Under the pieces are notes generated by a model. The model was given only the letters and a program-made list of their open reading frames with translations, was not told the DNA's origin and did not search any database. Positions 644-6,199 of a stretch of DNA of 6,289 bases are shown here, one piece after another. Source of the DNA: Candidatus Iainarchaeum sp. (GTDB taxonomy: Archaea; Iainarchaeota; Iainarchaeia; JAGGVJ01); assembly GCA_021158055.1 (NCBI GenBank), contig JAGGVJ010000029.1:1-6289 (forward strand), in the 5' to 3' direction. Positions within the stretch are counted from its first letter, which is position 1; every line of letters begins with the position of its first letter. The translations under genes and the position numbers were made by a program.

Positions 644-648
644 TCACC
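644..648 (-). promoter_or_regulatory. Shine-Dalgarno site for galU, inside the ugd stop
   Basis: The minus strand reads TTGGTGAAATTATG. GGTGA matches the archaeal 16S rRNA 3' end, lies four bases before the galU ATG and contains the ugd TGA stop. It fixes the galU start and suggests re-initiation by ribosomes that finish ugd. Confidence 0.75.
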
Positions 649-1924
649 AACACATGCCCTCGTATTCTTGTTCCAAAGGCACGTTTTTAAAAATATGTCT
701 TCCGTCAATAACAAGTTTTCTTTTAAACAATTCTTTGTCTTTGAACTCAGGCCAGTCAGTTAAAACTAGCACAATGTCAGAGAAATTAACTGATTCAAAT
801 TTATCAGCACAAAATGTGACATTTTCTCCAAAAACTCGCTTTGCATTTTTCATTGCTTCAGGATCAAAAACAGCTAGTTCAAATCCGTCTTTGAGTAATT
901 CATTTACAATTACAATGGCAGGTGATTCACGAATATCATCAGTTCCACTTTTAAAAGCCAATCCAAGAACACTTAATTTTTTCGTGTTTTTTTCAATTGC
1001 TTTTTCTTTGACCAAATTAATGAATTTAAATGGTTGATTCTTGTTTACTTCAAGAACAGACCTCAAAAGAATCGGGTTTTCGCCTTCTTCAAGTGCTTTG
1101 AAGTACAACGCTTTTACGTCTTTTGGAAAACAACTTCCTCCAAAACCAATCCCGCTTTTCAGAAACTCTTTGGAAATTCTGTAATCAAGACCAATTCCTT
1201 CAGCAACATCGTAAGTATCTATTTTCAGTTTTTTGCATAAATTTCCTATTTCATTTATGAAAGAAACCTTTGTTGCAAGAAAAGAATTTGCAGTATACTT
1301 AATCATTTCAGCGGTTTTTGGATCAGTGAACAGAAAAGGACACGAAAAAGAAGAATAAACATTTTTCAATACATTTTCAGATGTTTTGTTTAAAGATCCA
1401 ATAACGATTCTATCTGGATTATTGAAATCTTTTATGGCGCTTCCTTCCTTCAAAAACTCTGGATTCATACAGATGCCAAAACCAACGCCTTCTTTTTTAC
1501 CTGAATATTCTTCAATGAGGGGTAATACGACAGTTTCAGTGGTTCCTGTAACAACAGTGCTTTTAACAACAATTGTGTGAAAAGAATCTTTTTCAGAAAT
1601 TGCAGTTCCGATCTGACGAGAAGCTTCTTTGATATAGGATAAATCAATTGAACCGTCTTCTCCAGAAGGCGTTCCAACACAAATAAATGTAACGTCACTG
1701 TTTTTTACCGCATTTTTCAAATCAGTTGTTGCGCGAAGTTTTTGGGGTACAAAAAGTTCTAATTTTTCTTTTAACCCATCTTCAAAAATAGGTGTTTTTT
1801 TGGAATTAATCAAGTCAACTTTTTCTTCTAAAACATCTACACAAGTGACATCGTGATCACAGTCTGCAAGACCAACTCCAGAAATTAAGCCGACATAACC
1901 TGTTCCAATAATAGATATCTTCAT
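644..1924 (-). CDS. ugd: UDP-glucose 6-dehydrogenase
   Basis: Oxidises UDP-glucose to UDP-glucuronate with two NAD+ in the cytoplasm. All 426 residues fit the family. The N-terminal Rossmann motif is IIGTGYVG (5-12), followed by [12 protein letters not shown] (81-92), VKSTVVTGT (120-128) and [10 protein letters not shown] (154-163). The central helix [11 protein letters not shown] (208-218) carries the catalytic Lys/Asn pair. The active-site loop is FGGSCFPKD (261-269) with Cys265 as nucleophile, and [16 protein letters not shown] (321-336) marks the UDP-binding domain. The GGSCFPKD form separates it from UDP-ManNAc dehydrogenases (WecC), which usually read GGHCIPVDP. The gene starts 16 bases after the upstream epimerase stop, has no strong Shine-Dalgarno site, and ends four bases before galU. 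It therefore looks like a middle operon gene using the GalU product. Nothing essential is missing. Confidence 0.95.
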
Positions 1925-1940
1925 TTAAACCAACTTTTAT

Positions 1941-2831
1941 TTAGTTATTTATAGTGCATAATTTTTCCACAGCTTCTTTAAATTCAGTTTTTACTTCAAA
2001 CCCTGTTTCTTTCAGTTTACTGATATCTGCATAATTATTAAAATCCTGTGTTTTTTGTTCAATTTCAGTGTGAACTACGTCTTTATCGCAATCCAAAACA
2101 CTTTTTATAATCTCAACCAATTCATTTACTGTGGTTGATTTCCCTGTCCCGATGTTGTAAACTTCTCCACCAGCACCGTTTTCAAGAATGGAAAACACTG
2201 CGTCTAACGCATCGTCAATCCAAATGAAATCCCTTCCGGCATTTCCGGATCCAAGAACTTCAATCACATCATCATTCAACGCTTTGCGGATTAAATCAGG
2301 AATAACCCTTTCTGTTTGTCCTGGACCAAACACATTAAAAAACCGACCGACTCGACAGTCAAGTCCAAACTTTTCAAAAAACAACTTGCAGTAATATTCT
2401 CCAAAAACCTTGTGAACGCCGTAAAAAGAATTCGGGTTTAGCTCGCGCGATTCGCTTAAGGCTCCGACTGCCCCTGCCCCGTAAACATACGCTGAAGACG
2501 GAAAAAACACTTTTTTAACCCCCCCGTCAACACATGCCTGCAAGACATTTCTTGTTCCTGTGACGTTGACCAATTCGCTTAAAGAAGGGTTTAATTCAGT
2601 AATTTTCGGGTGGCTGACAGCAGCCAGATGAAAAACAACATCAACATCAAAAAAGTATTCTTTTATTGAATCAAGATCAGTAATGCAACCCTCAAAGCAG
2701 TTTTCGCCTTTTTCCGGTTGTCTGTCAACTGAAATTACATGGATATTCTCATTTAACAGCCGTGCCTTGAGCGCCTGGCCAATAAAACCAGTGCTCCCCG
2801 TAATCAGCGCGCTTGAAAAACTAAGTTCCAT
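1941..2831 (-). CDS. extended-SDR NAD-dependent sugar-nucleotide epimerase/reductase
   Basis: A 296-residue extended short-chain dehydrogenase acting on a nucleotide sugar. TGSTGFIG (11-18) binds NAD(P), VFHLAAVSHP (66-75) follows the fourth strand, and the catalytic set is SSAYVYG (112-118) with YGVHK (Tyr137, Lys141). GRFFNVFGPG (162-171) and GRDFIWIDDA (199-208) are typical of 4-epimerases and related reductases, and EVYNIGTG (223-230) closes the nucleotide-sugar site. Two roles fit. It may be a UDP-sugar 4-epimerase acting on UDP-glucose or UDP-glucuronate from the next two genes, or a reductase of the gmd product (RMD-like, giving GDP-6-deoxyhexose). Motifs alone do not separate them. 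I start at the ATG at 2831 because the fold begins six residues later. The frame is open back to a TTG at 2909, which would add 26 hydrophobic residues from a T-rich spacer. Confidence 0.85.
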   Translation of the reverse strand: MELSFSSALITGSTGFIGQALKARLLNENIHVISVDRQPEKGENCFEGCITDLDSIKEYFFDVDVVFHLAAVSHPKITELNPSLSELVNVTGTRNVLQACVDGGVKKVFFPSSAYVYGAGAVGALSESRELNPNSFYGVHKVFGEYYCKLFFEKFGLDCRVGRFFNVFGPGQTERVIPDLIRKALNDDVIEVLGSGNAGRDFIWIDDALDAVFSILENGAGGEVYNIGTGKSTTVNELVEIIKSVLDCDKDVVHTEIEQKTQDFNNYADISKLKETGFEVKTEFKEAVEKLCTINN

Positions 2832-2901: not shown

Positions 2902-3882
<981 letters not shown>

Positions 3883-3887
3883 TTATT

Positions 3888-3895
3888 TATATAAA
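3888..3895 (-). promoter_or_regulatory. TATA box of the gmd operon promoter
   Basis: TTTATATA on the minus strand is a full match to the archaeal TATA consensus, centred 33 bases before the gmd ATG. Initiation about 25 bases downstream would give a very short leader. The inverted repeat at 3895-3911 abuts it on the upstream (BRE) side, so a protein bound there should interfere with TBP/TFB. Confidence 0.65.
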
Positions 3896-3911
3896 ATTGA
3901 TATAATCAATT
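3895..3911. promoter_or_regulatory. 17-bp inverted repeat, candidate operator between divergent promoters
   Basis: AATTGATATAATCAATT has perfect 7-bp arms around a 3-bp centre. It begins at the last base of the gmd TATA box and ends 12 bases before the TATA box of the divergent gene. A further direct ATCAA copy follows at 3914-3918, giving TTGAT (3897-3901), ATCAA (3905-3909) and ATCAA. Short tandem or inverted half-sites are typical RHH operators, and the next gene encodes an RHH domain. Binding is inferred. Confidence 0.45.
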
Positions 3912-3923
3912 AAATCAACAGCA

Positions 3924-3931
3924 TTTAAATA
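3924..3931 (+). promoter_or_regulatory. TATA box of the RHH-nucleotidyltransferase promoter
   Basis: TTTAAATA matches the archaeal TTTAWATA consensus and is centred 25-26 bases before the ATG at 3953. That is the usual TATA-to-start-site distance, so transcription should begin at or next to the ATG. There is no Shine-Dalgarno site, which fits a leaderless mRNA. Confidence 0.6.
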
Positions 3932-3935
3932 GTTT

Positions 3936-3951
3936 ATTAATAATTATTAAT
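3936..3951. promoter_or_regulatory. 16-bp perfect AT palindrome just before the start codon
   Basis: ATTAATAATTATTAAT is its own reverse complement and ends two bases before the ATG of the RHH-nucleotidyltransferase gene. It would overlap the expected transcription start. It may be an autoregulatory operator, but it contains only A and T in an AT-rich spacer, so chance is a real alternative. Confidence 0.3.
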
Positions 3952-3952
3952 T

Positions 3953-4816
3953 ATGTCAAAAATTGTATCACTCAATATGTCTGAAGAACTGATTCAGGAA
4001 GTGGATTCAATCATTGACGGGCAAAAAATCCGCAACCGAAGCCATGCTTTTGAAATATTGATTACTGAAAGCCTGTCAAAGCGAAGGCTTTCACACGCAA
4101 TTATCCTCGCAGGCGGCAGGTCAAGCCAACTGCACCCGATAACCTATGAGATTCCAAAACCGATGATGCCAATAGGTGGAAAACCCATTTTAGAACACAC
4201 AATAAACCTTCTAAAAAAATATGAAATAACGGAAATATTTATTTCAGTGGGTTACCTGAAAGAAAGAATAATGGACTATTTTGGCGACGGTTCAAAATTC
4301 GGGGTAAACATAAAATACATAATTGATGAAAAACCACTTGGAACAAGCGGGCCATTAACCAAAATCAATTTAACCAATTCTTTTGTCGTAATCAACGGAG
4401 ACAATCTCTTAGACATTGACTTAAAAGACATGTTTGATTTTCACAAGTCAAACAAGTCAACAGCAACACTTGCTCTGGTAACAGTGGACAATCCTTCAAA
4501 ATACGGTCTTGTGAAAATGAGGGGTTCACAAATAACTGAATTCATTGAAAAGCCGATTGAAGAGCAAAAAACCACTTCAAAACTCATAAACGCAGGCATT
4601 TACATATTTGAACCGGAAATACTTGAAATGATCAAGCAATCAAACCAGCCAAATCAATCAACAAATAAAAAAAACATGCTTGAGCAAACAATTTTCCCGA
4701 TTCTTGCAAGGGAAGGCAAATTGTTTGGGTACACTTTCAGCGGCCAGTGGTTTGATGTCGGAGACCTTGAAAGTTACGAAGAAGCAATAAAAAACTGGAA
4801 AAACGTGAAAAATTGA
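3953..4816 (+). CDS. RHH DNA-binding domain fused to a sugar-1-phosphate nucleotidyltransferase
   Basis: A 287-residue two-domain protein. Residues 3-42 form a ribbon-helix-helix unit: a strand with alternating hydrophobics (V5, L7, M9; S6 and N8 expected to face DNA), helix A (10-21), a Gly turn, and helix B opening NRSHAFEILITESL (28-41). From residue 48 comes an NTP_transferase fold: PKPMMP (68-73), PLGTSG (128-133), metal-binding Asp150 in NGD, EKP (199-201), NAGIY (213-217) and Asp268 in WFDVGD. The nucleotide loop reads GGRSSQLHP (54-62) where the family has GGxGTRLxP, so the key Arg is Gln. A Gln/Asn-rich loop lies at 228-241. The fold resembles mannose/heptose-1-phosphate guanylyltransferases and RmlA-like enzymes; the sugar and nucleotide are unknown. 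The frame is continuous, so the fusion is genuine. It diverges from gmd and precedes wecB, suggesting transcriptional control or a trigger enzyme. Confidence 0.88.
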   Translation: MSKIVSLNMSEELIQEVDSIIDGQKIRNRSHAFEILITESLSKRRLSHAIILAGGRSSQLHPITYEIPKPMMPIGGKPILEHTINLLKKYEITEIFISVGYLKERIMDYFGDGSKFGVNIKYIIDEKPLGTSGPLTKINLTNSFVVINGDNLLDIDLKDMFDFHKSNKSTATLALVTVDNPSKYGLVKMRGSQITEFIEKPIEEQKTTSKLINAGIYIFEPEILEMIKQSNQPNQSTNKKNMLEQTIFPILAREGKLFGYTFSGQWFDVGDLESYEEAIKNWKNVKN

Positions 4817-4903: not shown

Positions 4904-6199
4904 ATGAAAATCGGAATCCTTACAGGCACAAGACCGGACATAATAAAAATGGCGCCTTTGTTTCACAAGGCAAAGGAAATGAACCACGAACCAGTGCTGA
5001 TTCACACAAGCCAGCACTACCCGTTTCACTTGTACGAGGGGGTTTACAGGGATCTTGAAATGGACTTCCCCGCGCATTTTGAAGTCGGGATGAGCATGGT
5101 TAAAAAAGCAGCGGTAAAAGCTTCAAAAGCAGCCCACCACGCAGACAGGAAAAACCCAAACCTCAAAGCGACAAAAAGACTTGAATCAGTTGCAACCAAA
5201 CTGTTTGACTCAAGACCAAACCCTGCGCAGACAGTTTCAACAATGATGAGCAACTTAAACAAGCTTTTCAGGACCGGCCTTAAAGACCTTGACATTCTTC
5301 TCACTCACGGCGACACATTAACCTGCATGTCCGGATCGCTTTCAGCAGCCCTAAATTTGATTCCGGTCGGGCACGTTGAAGCAGGGCTCAGAACATTTTC
5401 AAAAGAGCCCTTCCCGGAACAAATAGACACAAGAACAAGCGACGCGTGCGCAGACCTTTACTTCGCGGCAACAGAGGAAAACAAGGCAAACCTATTAAAC
5501 GAAGGGTTTCCAAAACAACGGATCAGCGTGGTCGGAAACACAGTTGTTGACGCCGCGCTTTGGGCTGCAGAAAAAGGAAAAAAACAAAGCACCATATTTG
5601 AAGACCTGAACATTGACAAAAACTCAAAAATAGTCTACTTTTCAGCGCACAGGAGAGAAAACCTCATGCACGAGCACAGGTTCAAAGCGATAACCGAATC
5701 CGCAATAGAGCTCGCAAACCAAGGGTACACTGTATTATGGTCAATCCGCCCCGGAACAAGAGTCGCCCTGCAGCAATACAATTTAGGCAAAAAAATAGAA
5801 AACATAGAAAACCTCCTGCCGGTAAGCGACATTCCAAACTATTCAGATTTAATGTACCTTCTCAGCAAATCATGGATGACCGTAACCGACTCCGGCTCGA
5901 TGCAGGAAGAGATATCAGCACTTAAAATACCTTGCGCGACACTCAGGTTCAACACAGACCGGCCCGAAAGCGTCAAGGCAGGGTTGAACAGGATTGCGCC
6001 CCCGAAAAGCAAGGAATCAATACTTGAAGTCGTAAAGACCATTGACCGGGACAACAAAGAAATGAGAAAAAGCAAAAACCCGTACGGAGACGGAACCTCA
6101 AGTGAAAAAATCATAAGGAAAATAGAGGAATTTGAAGGAAAACTGATTGAATGGGAGCACCAAAAACAAACCCAAAAGGGAAATAAAGTTTTTCCCTAA
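4904..6199 (+). CDS. wecB: UDP-N-acetylglucosamine 2-epimerase (non-hydrolysing type), divergent
   Basis: Interconverts UDP-GlcNAc and UDP-ManNAc, or acts on a related diacetamido sugar. The 431 residues exceed the usual 370-390. GTRPDIIKMAPL (8-19) carries Arg10 and Lys15. THGDT (134-138) and GHVEAGLRTF (156-165) supply the acidic residues matching E. coli WecB Asp95 and Glu117. VVGNTVVDA (209-217), SAHRREN (247-253, active-site His249), DSGSMQEE (329-336) and DRPESVKAG (352-360) complete the GT-B epimerase fold. Differences include GTRPD for GTRPE, PEQIDTR for the usual PEExNR, DSGSMQEE for DSGGIQEE, and a Lys/Ala-rich insertion near residues 62-104. No signal peptide or membrane helix is visible, so it is cytosolic. 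It follows the RHH fusion gene after 87 bases. Fold and family are sure; the exact substrate is less so. Confidence 0.88.
   Translation: MKIGILTGTRPDIIKMAPLFHKAKEMNHEPVLIHTSQHYPFHLYEGVYRDLEMDFPAHFEVGMSMVKKAAVKASKAAHHADRKNPNLKATKRLESVATKLFDSRPNPAQTVSTMMSNLNKLFRTGLKDLDILLTHGDTLTCMSGSLSAALNLIPVGHVEAGLRTFSKEPFPEQIDTRTSDACADLYFAATEENKANLLNEGFPKQRISVVGNTVVDAALWAAEKGKKQSTIFEDLNIDKNSKIVYFSAHRRENLMHEHRFKAITESAIELANQGYTVLWSIRPGTRVALQQYNLGKKIENIENLLPVSDIPNYSDLMYLLSKSWMTVTDSGSMQEEISALKIPCATLRFNTDRPESVKAGLNRIAPPKSKESILEVVKTIDRDNKEMRKSKNPYGDGTSSEKIIRKIEEFEGKLIEWEHQKQTQKGNKVFP
6177..6197. terminator. hairpin at the convergent gene ends, possible bidirectional terminator
   Basis: AGGGAAA and TTTCCCT form a perfect 7-bp stem with a 7-base loop spanning the last wecB codons. 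On the plus strand a T6 run follows at 6205-6210. On the minus strand a T-rich stretch with a T5 run follows the stem, inside wecB. The place suits termination of two convergent transcripts, although the T-tracts alone may suffice in archaea. Confidence 0.4.

Follow-up and report, generated by a model that had tools for sequence, protein, structure and literature searches.

Why should a ribbon-helix-helix (RHH) DNA-binding unit be joined to a nucleotide-sugar pyrophosphorylase, and what does the product do beside a divergent set of sugar-nucleotide genes? The locus that raises this question lies in a window of 6289 bases, i.e. the whole stretch of DNA that was analysed, which corresponds to one entire contig of a 1.15 Mb genome. 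The features of the window are collected in Table 1. The fusion gene is a single unbroken open reading frame. The initial annotation had placed an RHH unit and an NTP_transferase domain in this one frame, and the frame, the Pfam matches and homologues carrying RHH_1 all bore this out.

Table 1. Features of the window, in order of position
Feature	Position	Strand	Evidence or remark
GalU-like nucleotidyltransferase, cut by the contig end	1..639	-	Pfam NTP_transferase, E 7.7e-29
UDP-glucose 6-dehydrogenase-like, probably in the gmd operon	644..1924	-	TIGR03026, 444 bits (cut-off 189.8)
NAD-dependent epimerase/dehydratase, probably in the gmd operon	1941..2831	-	Pfam Epimerase, E 6.4e-54
gmd, GDP-mannose 4,6-dehydratase, divergent	2902..3858	-	TIGR01472, 453 bits (cut-off 415)
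Inverted repeat AATTGAT-ATA-ATCAATT, weak candidate, nearer the divergent promoter	3895..3911	.	Equalled in 32% of shuffles
TATA-box-like TTTAAATA of the fusion gene	3924..3931	+	Sequence
Perfect 16-bp palindrome ATTAATAATTATTAAT, candidate operator, between TATA box and start codon	3936..3951	.	Unique in genome; shuffles
RHH-nucleotidyltransferase fusion gene, 287 aa	3953..4816	+	ORF (ATG 3953 to stop 4816); Pfam; full-length homologues
RHH domain, residues 1-45 (strand about 3-9, helices 11-19 and 29-43)	3953..4087	+	Homologues; profile; AlphaFold2
NTP_transferase (sugar-1-phosphate nucleotidyltransferase) domain, residues 48-281	4094..4795	+	Pfam E 1.5e-49; VIA-align Z 30.2
Eroded catalytic loop GGRSSQL, residues 54-60, replacing GGxGTRL	4112..4132	+	Active-site alignment
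UDP-GlcNAc 2-epimerase-like (wecB), downstream of the fusion	4904..6199	+	TIGR00236, 274 bits (cut-off 210)

The two domains of the fusion protein

The RHH part of the window protein, searched alone, gave no Pfam match, even at E 10. Its identification as an RHH domain is strong, resting on homologues rather than on the window protein alone. Among 16 aligned fusions, Pfam matched RHH_1 in 14, over almost the full length of the profile, and the 47-residue N-terminus of a paralogue in the same genome (L002) scored 21.9 bits by itself (gathering score 20.5). A profile of 25 N-terminal sequences, the window included, retrieved NikR as its best match in the PDB (E 1.3e-4); CopG came next, below significance. 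Conservation is higher in the N-terminus than in the enzyme domain, with a mean identity of 67% vs 51% in the fusions classed below as type B and 65% vs 47% in type W. Six residues (D18, R27, R29, S30, A32 and E34, five of them in the motif R27-x-R29-S30-x-A32-x-E34) are invariant in the 25 sequences. Given this excess of conservation and these invariant residues, the unit is not a chance resemblance, and the initial reading, which depended on a conserved N-terminus, gained from both types.

The protein was modelled with AlphaFold2 from an alignment of 38 fusions, giving a mean pLDDT of 91.5 and values of 82-95 for the N-terminal blocks. Alignment depth matters here, as 16 rows gave 47-66 for the same N-terminus. 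The model has an extended segment followed by helices at residues 11-19 and 29-43, which agrees in helices and spacing with the RHH fold proposed for residues 1-45. The ribbon strand is missing from this monomer model because it depends on the dimer and cannot form in a monomer. The window RHH unit is divergent: its strand residues are I4-S6-N8 where the other types have R-T-T or R-T-N, and these altered ribbon residues could accompany a changed DNA site.

Residues 49-281 of the protein were matched to Pfam NTP_transferase (PF00483) with 169 bits (cut-off 21.2), over positions 2-241 of the 245 in the profile. A CheW match (E 0.0021) fell below the cut-off and was taken as chance. Comparison of the model with VIA-align returned human GMPPB (7d72_E, 1.9 Å over 229 residues), closely followed by RmlA, MurU and UDP-glucose pyrophosphorylase; matches to the enzyme domain take up this list, which is uninformative on the RHH part. 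The nearest solved enzymes include glucose-1-phosphate as well as mannose-1-phosphate transferases. None of the NCBIfam models listed reached its cut-off, the best scoring 159.9 bits vs 440, so the protein cannot be assigned to a substrate-specific enzyme such as RmlA, GMP pyrophosphorylase, GalU or GlmU, and the substrate cannot be named. Mannose-1-phosphate, raised earlier as a conditional possibility, is not established by these mixed structural matches, and related fusions adjoin UDP-glucose dehydrogenase or ADP-heptose genes.

In the RmlA-type fold, the Arg of the signature loop is a conserved residue that handles the nucleotide phosphates. The signature GxGTRLxPxTxxxPK is absent from the window copy, which reads GRSSQLHPITYEIPK: Gly-Thr-Arg has become Ser-Ser-Gln, the catalytic Arg being replaced by Gln and its two neighbours by Ser (GRSSQL). 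Lys69, Asp150, Lys200, Asp268 and the N-A-G motif are retained, and Asp150, Lys200 and Asp268 represent the metal and sugar-phosphate residues of the GD, EKP and WxDxG motifs. Judged from this alignment, the window copy is an intermediate that has lost the catalytic Arg and kept the other catalytic residues. Loss of this Arg makes impaired catalysis likely; as most catalytic residues are kept, the protein may still be active.

Distribution, types and gene neighbourhoods of the fusions

Full-length fusions are widespread in three DPANN lineages, Iainarchaeota/Diapherotrites, Aenigmatarchaeota and Woesearchaeota/Nanoarchaeota. The genome-contig scan was made with the type B alignment and is therefore biased towards RHH motifs resembling IRSRSQA. 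For another archaeal phylum, the one with a Methanoperedenaceae record, 100 genomes were searched: no above-threshold match covered the RHH region, the earliest beginning at position 27 of the profile and most of them at 35 or beyond.

The fusions were sorted into types by their catalytic loop. The GxGTRL loop is intact in types A and Y. It has been lost, together with the metal-binding Asp268, in type B (Diapherotrites and Aenigmatarchaeota) and type W (mostly Woesearchaeota). Types B and W retain Asp150, Lys200 and mostly the N-A-G motif, which line the sugar-phosphate side, and this loss of the catalytic loop with retention of sugar-binding residues is as expected of sensors. Loop erosion also occurs in single type Y-like proteins (L145, L148). 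The type Y proteins of Woesearchaeota, with a GKGTRL-type loop, are close relatives of the window protein (enzyme domains up to 54% identical). In several proteins of types A and C (L009, L012 and L035 among them), WF(P/T)TDT stands in place of the WxDxG of pyrophosphorylases, apparently a displacement of the metal-binding Asp by two residues. Another fusion (L137, G080 contig C31) has a longer N-terminal extension, in which a C-x2-C pair precedes the RHH unit.

All the sampled close relatives devoid of an RHH unit fall into one group (type C), and one state change on the tree suffices. The pattern is consistent with one fusion and a single later loss; other histories are possible. In a first tree the window protein stood beside type B (SH-aLRT 90). 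This placement was abandoned: after addition of type Y from Woesearchaeota, the window protein moved to the Y/A/C group (84), and its position is sampling-dependent.

Location of the fusion beside nucleotide-sugar genes, as originally described, was seen both in the window, with its divergent gmd operon, and in the partner operons of homologues. In most type B loci, a UDP-glucose 6-dehydrogenase gene is divergent from the fusion and is followed by genes for a GalU-like enzyme and an epimerase. The window has this gene set, ordered differently: after the fusion come divergent gmd, the epimerase, UDP-glucose dehydrogenase and GalU. The wecB-like gene on its other side matches its family model in two stretches, which suggests an insertion near residues 60-105.

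In type W, the divergent operon encodes a GmhA-like protein or a cupin, an HldE kinase (TIGR02198, above cut-off), a GmhB-like protein and an HldE adenylyltransferase (TIGR02199, above cut-off); by these family assignments it is an ADP-heptose pathway. The other flank carries a GT9 heptosyltransferase-like gene and an STT3 oligosaccharyltransferase gene. This adjacency of the ADP-heptose pathway to GT9 and STT3 genes was observed in L075-L115 (Woesearchaeota/Nanoarchaeota) and suggests the presence of heptose in archaeal surface glycans. In type Y, a phosphomannomutase/phosphoglucomutase-like gene comes directly after the fusion in 12 of 19 loci. Several type Y loci (among L158-L176, and L135) have a divergent fructose-1,6-bisphosphatase gene, some of them with aldolase- or GAPDH-like (gluconeogenic) genes. 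The paralogue L002 (contig C34), whose GQGTRL loop is intact, stands alone beside an ATPase-like gene, and no recognisable site was found in its upstream region.

Operator-like sites upstream of the fusions

Hexamers upstream of the fusion genes were counted without a prior motif. GTATGA/TCATAC was the most enriched hexamer in type B (27 observed vs 0.9 expected, 19 of 21 loci) and, counted separately, in type W (75 vs 2.5, 36 of 40 loci); these locus counts are not independent, the species being related. With a mean identity of only 51% and 47% in the enzyme domains, such alike intergenic DNA is not expected unless selected. In the 110 nt upstream of genes, in two sets, 20 sites were found for 22 fusion genes and 67 for 40, and 21 sites for 20 divergent partners and 77 for 35, the fusion and partner counts not being independent because the two genes have their intergenic DNA in common. 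All the other genes had 5 sites for 234 genes and 23 for 435. The sites hardly occur other than upstream of the fusion and its partner.

Of 26 loci of types A and B, 15 have TCATA-N5-TATGA (up to 1 mismatch) at exactly -21 relative to the start codon, a short way downstream of the TATA box. Perfect copies located 42-61 bases upstream occur in a few more type B loci, and in the Aenigmatarchaeota loci the sites are arranged differently. When whole genomes were scanned for exact copies, 0-5 were found per genome, and in most genomes having any, one was at the fusion gene. In type Y, the half-site is often a direct repeat (TCATAC) located upstream, not downstream, of the TATA box; it had 17 genome-wide matches in 14 genomes, 8 of the 17 at the Y gene. 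These operator-like sites in homologues lend support to the autoregulation proposed earlier.

The window promoter has no GTATGA site, and the best match to TCATA-N5-TATGA in the window has 3 mismatches, as expected by chance. It has instead the palindrome at 3936-3951, which is AT-only and unique in the genome even when 1 mismatch is allowed. Its significance is modest (shuffle P 0.028 if contiguous, 0.13 with a spacer allowed) and it was seen in one genome; it is a candidate for the window operator. The repeat at 3895-3911 is not significant alone, since arms of at least 7 with a spacer of 0-6 occurred in 32% of shuffles.

Proposed function and comparison with known systems

Because the fusion lies beside sugar-nucleotide genes, usually with conserved repeats in its promoter, its probable role is to sense the supply of sugar nucleotides and to turn those genes on and off. 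Our preferred reading, which we hold to be probable, is that the window protein is a one-component regulator made from a sugar-nucleotide pyrophosphorylase, repressing itself and probably the divergent operon. The RHH unit would dimerise and bind an inverted repeat in the common divergent promoter, 3936-3951 being the candidate. The bound regulator would repress its own gene and probably also the operon on the opposite strand (gmd, epimerase, UDP-glucose dehydrogenase and GalU). The pyrophosphorylase domain, damaged in its nucleotide-phosphate loop and intact on its sugar-phosphate side, would bind a nucleotide sugar or a precursor. Binding of this ligand would set the affinity for DNA, so that expression would be coupled to supply.

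The initial annotation had offered a trigger enzyme or a ligand-sensing repressor. The second term fits types B and W better, as their loop is gone, and the first fits the A and Y branches, where it is intact; for the window copy, the word enzyme is doubtful given its Gln and two Ser in the loop. A PutA-like trigger enzyme, i.e. a working pyrophosphorylase repressing genes according to the level of its substrate or product, is a minor possibility for the window protein. It would account for the retained Lys69, Asp150, Lys200, Asp268 and N-A-G motif, and for the type Y relatives with their intact loop and neighbouring mutase-like gene, but it has to accommodate Ser-Ser-Gln in place of the signature Gly-Thr-Arg. 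It is quite improbable that the protein is a plain metabolic enzyme whose RHH unit merely joins subunits. RHH units are indeed dimerisation domains, and an EcRHH-RcPutA chimaera provided evidence that the DNA-binding domain mediates dimerisation of trifunctional PutA (PMC5293562). Against such a role stand the strong, location-specific hexamer enrichment upstream of the fusions and their divergent partners and the two large branches that lost the catalytic loop yet keep the RHH unit.

The GTATGA sites might instead serve another regulator, the fusion acting elsewhere or on a different site. Their absence from the window promoter points that way, as do strand residues that differ among types B, A and W while the hexamer is common to B and W. 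We find this improbable, since the sites are near-exclusive to the intergenic region of the fusion across phyla and mostly absent from the other genes of the same loci. That the RHH call itself is wrong, the N-terminus being some other helical extension, is hardly credible: the lack of a Pfam match in the window protein and the unbuilt strand would suit it, but the RHH_1 matches of homologues, the NikR match and the helix spacing all contradict it.

For the family as a whole, we lean towards a single ancestral RHH-pyrophosphorylase fusion, DPANN-wide, from which came active trigger enzymes and, by repeated loop loss, pure nucleotide-sugar sensors. Through a common GTATGA half-site, these would regulate how much uronate, heptose and hexose is supplied to surface glycans.

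DNA-binding domains fused to enzymes sensing their own pathway are found in NadR, BirA and archaeal RbkR, with winged-helix or helix-turn-helix domains and enzyme folds unrelated to that of the fusion. NikR, the best PDB match of the RHH profile, likewise joins an RHH unit to a C-terminal ligand-binding domain, but this is an ACT-type metal-binding domain with nickel as ligand, whereas that of the fusion is an NTP_transferase. The fold of the latter is common to GMPPA/GMPPB, MurU, RmlA and archaeal sugar-1-phosphate nucleotidyltransferases, which are without a DNA-binding domain. Trifunctional PutA is an RHH-enzyme autogenous repressor responding to a metabolite of its own pathway (PMC5293562). 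It resembles the fusion in its N-terminal RHH unit joined to a metabolic enzyme and differs in being bacterial, in its unrelated flavoenzyme dehydrogenases and in having kept catalysis. The proline dehydrogenase and P5C dehydrogenase domains of PutA were not found in the fusion with Pfam, where only NTP_transferase-type domains were above the cut-off. GMPPA is a non-catalytic paralogue of pyrophosphorylases; it binds GDP-mannose and shows that such a paralogue can become a nucleotide-sugar sensor (PMC11228364), but its target is a partner enzyme and not DNA. No description of the RHH-pyrophosphorylase architecture was found in the open-access literature searched, which omits most subscription journals. 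Enzyme-derived regulators are already known, PutA being a precedent for the design of the fusion and GMPPA for its sensing half.

To our knowledge, almost nothing is known of gene control in the reduced DPANN archaea. Having predicted operators and target operons as well as a candidate class of ligand, the fusion family provides a regulator that is open to testing, and it appears to show the enzyme, trigger enzyme and sensor stages together.
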